Shown: piece by piece, positions 62,111 to 64,000 of the stretch | Layout of the letters: each line of letters opens with the position of its first letter | How positions within the stretch are numbered: the stretch's first letter is position 1 | Assembly: GCA_021801255.1 (NCBI GenBank) | Contig: JAJYYH010000033.1 | Coordinates: forward strand, 124,001 to 188,000 | Length of the DNA: 64,000 nucleotides | Origin: Pseudomonadota bacterium | Lineage (GTDB): Bacteria > Pseudomonadota > Alphaproteobacteria > Acetobacterales > Acetobacteraceae | Reading direction: 5' to 3' | The notes under the pieces: generated by a model | The model's database searches: none | Told to the model about the DNA's origin: nothing | Seen by the model: the letters and a program-made list of their open reading frames with translations, nothing else | Translations under genes and position numbers: made by a program

Positions 62111-62185
62111 GCCGGGTTAGCACAGGGGTAGTGCAGCGGTTTTGTAAACCGAAGGCCGGGGGTTCAAATCCCTCACCCGGCACCA
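62111..62185 (+). tRNA. tRNA-Thr(TGT)
   Basis: A 75-base tRNA including encoded CCA. Acceptor GCCGGGT pairs with ACCCGGC; the anticodon arm CGGT/ACCG closes loop TTTGTAA with anticodon TGT; the T loop is TTCAAAT in GGGGGTTCAAATCCCTC. It is immediately followed by the AT-rich spacer. Confidence 0.96.
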
Positions 62186-62831: not shown

Positions 62832-64000
62832 ATGCGAGAGAAAAACCGCAACATATCGCTACAGAAAAACAATAATAACATCTATTACCTGCATGTGTTA
62901 CTCACCGGCCCGGCCTCGGCGTGGAACGAGGCGCTTGATCGTTGTGCCGGCATGGGCTTTGGGCAGGTTTTACTTCCGCCCCTTGTTGCGCCGGGAAGCG
63001 GGGGCAACCTGTTTCTCGCCGGCGACCTGGACCTGCCGCATCCCGCTTGTGCCTGGCACGGGGATACGACGGCGCTGGTCGCGCATCTCGCCGGCTTGTG
63101 CCGGGCGCGCGGCGTGCGGCCCCTGGTCGATCTCGTGCTCGATCAGGTCGCAGCGGATGGCGCCTTGCGCCACGCGCATGCCGATCTTTTCGAAGCCGCG
63201 GATGGGCCCGCCGGCCTCGATCCGCGCATCCCCCGCGCCGGGTTTGGCGCCGTGCGTGCGCTGTGGGATGTGCCGGACGCCGCCGCCGCCCTGATCGCGC
63301 TCTGGACCGCGCGGCTGCGCGGCTGGGCGGATGCGGGGCTTGGCGGGGTTCGGCTTCTCGGGCTCGGCGCCGTGCCGGGAGCCCATCTCGCCGGTCTCAT
63401 CGCCGGTGTGCGGCAACACGCGCCGGATTTCCGTTTCCTCGGCTGGACACCGGGCGTGCCCCGGACGCGCTATGCCGAATGGCGCGGCGCTGGGCTCGAT
63501 CTCGTGTTCTGCTCGCTGCCGTGGTGGAATTTTCGTGACGGCTGGTTCTGGGATGAAATCGCGGCGCTGCGCGATGTCGCGCCGGTCGCGGCGGCGCCGG
63601 AGGCGCCTTGCGGCCACCGCCTCGCCACACAATGGCAGAGCCCGGCGCTGCTTCGTGCTTTCTATCTGCGCGCGCTCCGCCTTGCCGCCGTGCTCGGCGC
63701 CGGCTGGCTTCTGCCGATGGGGTTCGAATACGCGGCCGGCCGCGCCCTGCCCGATGCCGATCCCCGCCCCGACGATTTCGCCGCCATGCGCAACGACGCC
63801 CCCTTCGATCTCACCGCTGAAATCGCCGCGCTCAACACGTCGCGCAACGAGATCGCGGGTCTCGCCGCGGGGGAGGCGCGGCTGCTGACCGGGCCGGGCG
63901 GGGATGCCATCGCGCTGCTTCGCGGCAACGCCGCGGAGGCCACGGCGCTGGCGCTTCTCAATACCCGCCTCGAAGCGACAAACACGCTGCGTTGCGCCGA
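62832..64000 (+). CDS. GH13/GlgE-like alpha-amylase family protein, partial (C-terminus beyond right edge)
   Basis: A frame open to the window edge (389 codons). After an AT-rich, Asn-rich N-terminus (MREKNRNISLQKNNNNIYYL), the sequence follows a GH13 barrel: GMGFGQVLLPPLVAPG, LAGLCRARGVRPLVDLVLDQ, AHADLFE, then WADAGLGGVRLLGLGAVPGA and LPMGFEYAAGRALP. The pattern is closest to GlgE-type maltosyltransferases. The usual nucleophile segment (GFRxDA) reads GVRLLG, and the usual acid/base segment (FLAE) reads FLGW, so both catalytic residues appear lost. The start could be ATG 62832 or a GTG near 62893; neither has a clear ribosome site. Confidence 0.65.
   Translation, partial: MREKNRNISLQKNNNNIYYLHVLLTGPASAWNEALDRCAGMGFGQVLLPPLVAPGSGGNLFLAGDLDLPHPACAWHGDTTALVAHLAGLCRARGVRPLVDLVLDQVAADGALRHAHADLFEAADGPAGLDPRIPRAGFGAVRALWDVPDAAAALIALWTARLRGWADAGLGGVRLLGLGAVPGAHLAGLIAGVRQHAPDFRFLGWTPGVPRTRYAEWRGAGLDLVFCSLPWWNFRDGWFWDEIAALRDVAPVAAAPEAPCGHRLATQWQSPALLRAFYLRALRLAAVLGAGWLLPMGFEYAAGRALPDADPRPDDFAAMRNDAPFDLTAEIAALNTSRNEIAGLAAGEARLLTGPGGDAIALLRGNAAEATALALLNTRLEATNTLRCA

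Follow-up and report, generated by a model that had tools for sequence, protein, structure and literature searches.

The GlgE pathway leads from TreS–Mak through maltose 1-phosphate to GlgE and on to GlgB, as laid out in the consulted passages of a 2024 review (PMC11046441). The catalytic residues of S. coelicolor GlgEI are given as D394 and E423 in the part of PMC4526890 consulted, while passages of PMC8084333 describe P. aeruginosa PAO1 GlgE as an active enzyme with published kinetics. The solved GlgE chains matched in our searches are 663–723 residues long, and no mention of a second barrel in GlgE was found in the portions consulted of PMC11046441, PMC7935935, PMC4526890 and PMC8084333. 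Elsewhere in alpha-glucan metabolism, plant ISA2 provides a precedent for a non-catalytic GH13 protein; according to the consulted text of PMC12510319, it is a non-catalytic paralogue that works together with an active enzyme as a separate subunit of a debranching complex. Also relevant here are the maltogenic amylase AmyB (PDB 4gkl) and an alpha-amylase of Lactobacillus plantarum (PDB 3dhu), which are separate amylases of 422 and 449 residues, respectively, and carry no GlgE fusion.

The locus analyzed here encodes a GlgE of 1096 residues. It resembles the solved enzymes in the domains and catalytic residues of its C-terminal half and in adjoining treS-mak and glgB, and differs from them in carrying an additional N-terminal barrel of ~440 residues that lacks the catalytic triad. 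This extra barrel nonetheless has the same fold as GlgE, which is among its closest solved relatives. With respect to ISA2, the likeness lies in the pairing of a non-catalytic paralogue with an active alpha-glucan enzyme, whereas the dead barrel and the polymerase described here are parts of one fused chain. The protein family as such is already known, its annotated records being named GlgE or "maltotransferase domain-containing protein".

The 5′ part of the gene lies at the end of the window, the 64,000-nucleotide stretch of DNA that was analyzed (G000:C58:124001-188000), and its principal features are collected in Table 1. The 3′ end lies 2122 bases past the window end, at G000:C58:190122, and the gene is not truncated; the full frame corresponds to L007:332-3622, against which window 62832-64000 was compared letter for letter. 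Downstream on the same strand follow treS-mak (with treS_nterm and TreS_Cterm matches, its longest frame beginning within the end of glgE) and then glgB, glgX and treZ. Upstream of glgE, a tRNA-Thr (TGT) is located at window 62111-62185, with ~650 bases between the two to which no gene was assigned.

Table 1. Features of the two-barrel glgE gene within the window.
Feature	Window position (strand)	Basis or conservation
Two-barrel glgE, 5′ part	62832..64000 (+)	Residues 1-389 of 1096
Degenerate GH13/GlgE-like N-barrel and start of its C-terminal strands	62874..64000 (+)	AlphaFold, Foldseek, VIA-align, profile match
Asp100 (region I Asp)	63129..63131 (+)	Kept in 16/16 active and 73/76 degenerate N-barrels
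Arg174 (region II Arg)	63351..63353 (+)	Kept in 16/16 active and 70/76 degenerate N-barrels
Leu176 in place of nucleophile Asp	63357..63359 (+)	Profile, row comparison, own-half BLASTP
Trp205 in place of acid/base Glu	63444..63446 (+)	Trp in 61/76 degenerate N-barrels, Glu in 0/76
Glu242	63555..63557 (+)	Glu in 73/76 degenerate N-barrels, Gln in 15/16 active
Pro259-Cys260 in place of the conserved His-Asp of active N-barrels	63606..63611 (+)	

Judged by its sequence, the C-terminal half is a GlgE maltosyltransferase of the usual kind whose active site is intact, and it is predicted to transfer maltosyl units from maltose 1-phosphate. Specifically, matches to PF11896 (residues 451-636, E 1.6e-51), PF00128 (648-787) and PF21702 (GLGE_C, 1005-1090) all score above their curated cut-offs, and the N/S domain, the catalytic domain and the GlgE C domain are all present in this half. 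Its motifs include GVRLFRVDNPHTKP, FLAEAF and NTPDIN, with FRVDNPHTKP and FLAEAF read directly in the sequence. The catalytic barrel has Arg824, Asp826, Glu855 and Asp913, among which the nucleophile Asp826 and the acid/base Glu855 are invariant in an alignment of five sequences.

The N-terminal half is confidently predicted to be a GH13/GlgE-type barrel, a reading that draws on remote homology and structural modeling. Its 431 residues match neither a Pfam nor an NCBIfam family at E values up to 0.1; when two related N-halves were scanned alone at a lax limit, matches below the cut-offs appeared for Alpha-amylase (L018, E 0.0028) and hDGE_amylase (L012, E 0.0014; L018, E 0.044), in agreement with a GH13 barrel. 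A profile built from 22 degenerate N-halves matched GlgE 5cgm best in the PDB (E 8.1e-22, positions 12-395), and the eight best PDB rows were all GlgE. Moreover, a BLASTP alignment of the protein's own two halves spans 377 columns at 25% identity (E 2e-9). For window 62874-63998, an AlphaFold model built from 41 sequences has a mean pLDDT of 90.6 and a pTM of 0.91. Foldseek placed GlgE first for this model (4u3c, E 6e-18), while in VIA-align GlgE 4cn4 (Z 33.6, 352 aligned, 3.0 Å) tied with the L. plantarum alpha-amylase 3dhu (Z 34.4, 343 aligned, 2.6 Å) as the best structural match. Taken together, the predicted model and its matches are those of a GH13 (beta/alpha)8 barrel. For the complete protein, a full-length model of the relative from Belnapia arida reached a pTM of 0.66, with a low-confidence stretch between the halves at residues 423-437, and at this pTM it does not support any domain arrangement or shared glucan path.

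In terms of catalytic residues, Leu176, Trp205 and Cys260 stand where active GH13 enzymes have Asp, Glu and Asp. The catalytic residues of GH13 enzymes sit at or after the ends of barrel strands, and in the AlphaFold model (model residue numbering for the strands) Leu176 is the last residue of strand 158-162, Trp205 comes immediately after strand 187-190, and the loop past strand 238-240 contains Pro259-Cys260; these are the places expected for a GH13 active site. The original prediction had read the nucleophile segment as GVRLLG (window 63345-63362) and the acid/base segment as FLGW (window 63435-63446) within a retained barrel pattern, with both catalytic residues lost, and had proposed a pseudoenzyme or the N-terminal regulatory half of a larger two-barrel protein whose active domain lies beyond the edge. 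Both segments held up, and the own-half BLASTP places Leu176 opposite Asp826 and Trp205 opposite Glu855; the barrel pattern was likewise recovered, in the profile match to GlgE structures and in the confident model. The loss in fact goes further than had been claimed, since the third position (His-Asp) is gone as well, and the extended gene has an intact GlgE domain just past the window edge. The inactivity of the N-barrel is thus predicted from its sequence and well supported, and the barrel corresponds to a GH13 pseudoenzyme in the sequence sense, namely a homologue that is conserved yet without catalytic residues.

A catalytic Asp or Glu elsewhere in the visible sequence, which would have undone this reading, was sought by sequence, profile and fold position, and only unlikely replacements emerged. 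The remaining conserved acids Asp100, Glu257 and Glu299 also occur in active N-barrels beside an intact triad and are therefore unlikely substitutes, and Glu242, which is new to the degenerate group, lies within a helix (model residues 224-233).

Two-barrel GlgEs were found in many Pseudomonadota. GlgE was present in 63 of the 398 Pseudomonadota genomes drawn, and 19 of these 63 had it in a single frame of at least 1000 residues, which leaves room for two barrels. Sequences related to the N-half were matched in 14/40 genomes of relatives (own genome included), 56/289 of the class and 103/299 of the phylum, many of the class and phylum matches being ordinary GH13 or GlgE barrels; further N-halves came from plasmid records and from a scan of named genomes, in which 54 of the best 80 of 587 relatives had the N-half. 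The Pseudomonas GlgEs compared here, among those same best 80 of 587, have one barrel. The survey covered Pseudomonadota, and the three actinobacterial GlgEs included as outgroup are frames of 682-720 residues, consistent with one barrel.

From 100 collected N-halves, 94 were compared after six had been dropped. Sixteen retain the full triad (for example in Azospirillum and Methylobacterium), the acid/base Glu is absent from 76, and the remaining two are mixed: the N-barrel of L022 has Asn in place of the nucleophile and keeps Glu and His, and that of L041 keeps Glu and has lost both nucleophile and His. These counts are of sequences, close relatives included, and not of independent events. 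The active forms in Azospirillum (annotated "maltotransferase domain-containing protein"), Methylobacterium and Oleisolibacter share their architecture and a homologous N-barrel with the protein described here, and differ from it in keeping the Asp, Glu and His-Asp that are lost in our barrel. Among the 76 degenerate N-barrels, the nucleophile Asp is retained in 16, Glu in none, His in one and the Asp of His-Asp in five; at most one of the three acids is left in any sequence, and 55 have none. Predicted inactivity is less certain for the 16 that keep the nucleophile Asp. Scaffold positions are preserved much more widely (Asp100 73, Arg174 70, Trp231 69, Trp232 73, Trp238 74 and Gly172 76), and new residues have become common, with Trp205 in 61, Pro259 in 65 and Glu242 in 73. 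For the 110 columns that at least 15 of the 16 active rows conserve, median retention in the degenerate rows is 45%, so the catalytic sites are more fully lost than a typical conserved column; certain columns outside the triad are lost equally (Asn104 0/76, His105 2/76, Trp at position 137 0/76).

Several individual cases were also encountered. In L022:1417-2559 (G037; L032 is the same gene) the nucleophile Asp is replaced by Asn and Glu and His-Asp are kept, and the close relative L025 has the full triad; L022 apparently represents an independent step of inactivation. In G171, an active-looking N-barrel forms its own 466-residue frame (L113:6530-7927) directly before a treZ-like frame, and a separate single-barrel GlgE frame of 746 residues lies on another contig. 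This free-standing N-barrel is possibly an unfused ancestor or the product of fission. In two GlgE genes, at L115:4129-6196 (G579) and at G507:C1:1995769-1996300, the part coding for the GlgE domain falls into two frames, by assembly error or decay; G579 had looked like a second standalone case and was set aside because of these frame changes. Standalone N-barrels were accordingly rejected as proof of an ancestral state, as G171 and G579 could both be fissions. Finally, L039, L042 and L043 are free-standing GH13-like frames of 445-577 residues from same-class genomes of 1.4-1.6 Mb and are distant relatives of the N-barrel; two of them, L039 and L042, have Asp, Glu and His-Asp.

We considered how often the triad had been lost by means of trees for each half. 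The N-half tree comprised 82 of the 100 N-halves, with catalytic columns removed, six partial or poorly matched N-halves excluded and eight GlgE barrels as outgroup. In it, a single clade (SH-aLRT 99) takes in 67 of the 68 degenerate rows and leaves the 14 active rows outside; the exception is L022, which falls beside its active relative L025. The degenerate N-halves evolve rapidly, with a stem of 0.5, several very long end branches and a long-branch warning from the program, and their clade may for this reason be partly an artefact. An unrooted C-half tree likewise splits active from degenerate types by a branch with support 99, L022 again being the sole exception, and places the single-barrel GlgEs of Pseudomonadaceae and Halomonadaceae on the degenerate side. 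A quick C-half tree rooted on Streptomyces/Arthrobacter conflicts with this arrangement: degenerate lineages branch off close to its base, and the active rows are nested further in, together with other single-barrel GlgEs (that of Paracoccus, for example). When the degenerate side was held together, a group named after the trees had been inspected, the likelihood exceeded that of the rooted quick tree by 46 log units (p-AU 0.898); the test thus did not reject a single degenerate clade, and the quick search was incomplete. A single loss was not accepted from the C-half tree alone, given the disagreement between rooted and unrooted trees and the post hoc choice of group. Overall, one main loss of the N-barrel triad is likely. 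As for the source of the barrel, a profile of the active N-barrels finds 4gkl and 3dhu as its two best hits in the PDB, ahead of GlgE, and a simple duplication of GlgE is therefore not supported.

Selection was assessed by dN/dS (Nei–Gojobori) in 17 pairs, namely 14 degenerate, two active (L056/L058 and L055/L031) and L025/L022, which are not all independent because two rows were used in two pairs each. The N-half value ranged from 0.08 to 0.44 in all 14 degenerate pairs (344-466 codons), and was 0.245 in our protein's own pair, where the GlgE half gave 0.172. The N-half value exceeded that of the GlgE half in 17/17 pairs, active types included, which indicates weaker constraint on the N-half. 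The degenerate N-barrel thus appears to be retained under natural selection in many proteobacteria.

The account that we regard as probable, if by no means assured, is that this protein is a GlgE fused behind a dead GH13-type barrel, which serves it in cis as a non-catalytic accessory domain and most likely holds glucan or acts as a scaffold. An ancestrally active GH13 barrel would have become fused to GlgE, been inactivated mainly once, and been retained thereafter as an accessory domain that no longer hydrolyzes or transfers glucan. The neighboring TreS–Mak would make maltose 1-phosphate, the C-terminal barrel would add maltosyl units and GlgB would branch the product, with the N-barrel most likely holding the growing alpha-glucan in its former active site by means of the Trp, or else shaping the assembly. 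Between these roles we infer glucan binding as the preferred one, from the fold, the conserved Trp residues and the analogy with ISA2.

The residues most pertinent to this role can also be read otherwise. That Trp205, Pro259 and Glu242 have become common at or near the old pocket is unexpected under plain decay, and would also suit a regulatory domain that gates GlgE from within the same chain, its pocket recognizing a glucan end or one of the metabolites maltose, trehalose and maltose 1-phosphate; regulation of the pathway is moreover largely unknown according to the consulted passages of the 2024 review. We consider such a sensor doubtful, as no ligand is known and Asn104 and His105, pocket residues in the active N-barrels, are lost as well. 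In addition, the compared Pseudomonas GlgEs manage with one barrel, and the PAO1 enzyme, which lies outside that comparison, is active (PMC8084333, as consulted); if it is single-barreled like them, the N-barrel would be dispensable for GlgE activity. The weaker constraint in 17/17 pairs, the poorly matched N-parts in rows L040, L041, L045 and L149, and the grouping with the degenerate types, in the C-half tree, of Pseudomonadaceae and Halomonadaceae GlgEs that lack the barrel would instead agree with an evolutionary relic that has no specific function and persists because its loss would destabilize the fused protein. This we judge unlikely in view of dN/dS values below 0.45 in every degenerate pair, the same substitute Trp in 61 of 76 sequences, and the near-invariance of the non-catalytic Gly172, Trp238 and Asp100. 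Continued enzymatic activity through other residues is highly improbable: it could point to the nucleophile Asp in 16 of the 76 and to acids near the old pocket (Glu257 in 56/76, Glu299 in 63/76), but these two Glu residues are also present in 16/16 active N-barrels and so are unlikely replacements, no degenerate sequence has a second triad acid, and the Asn-His of the active form's region I is gone.

Extending the accessory-domain account more speculatively, it is possible that a single recruitment early in the history of this GlgE lineage turned the dead barrel into an in-cis sensor of glucan or of a metabolite, which controls glycogen polymerization through the Trp205/Pro259 site, and that lineages with an active N-barrel are bifunctional, trimming as well as extending glucan; we offer this tentatively. 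A dead N-barrel as a conserved GlgE module with active counterparts was not described in the literature searched, in the parts consulted, and subscription papers may mention it. As one architecture includes barrels that are active, dead or in between, both the steering of GlgE and the conversion of an enzyme into an accessory domain become directly testable, and the single-barrel Pseudomonas GlgEs provide a natural comparison for the two-barrel forms.
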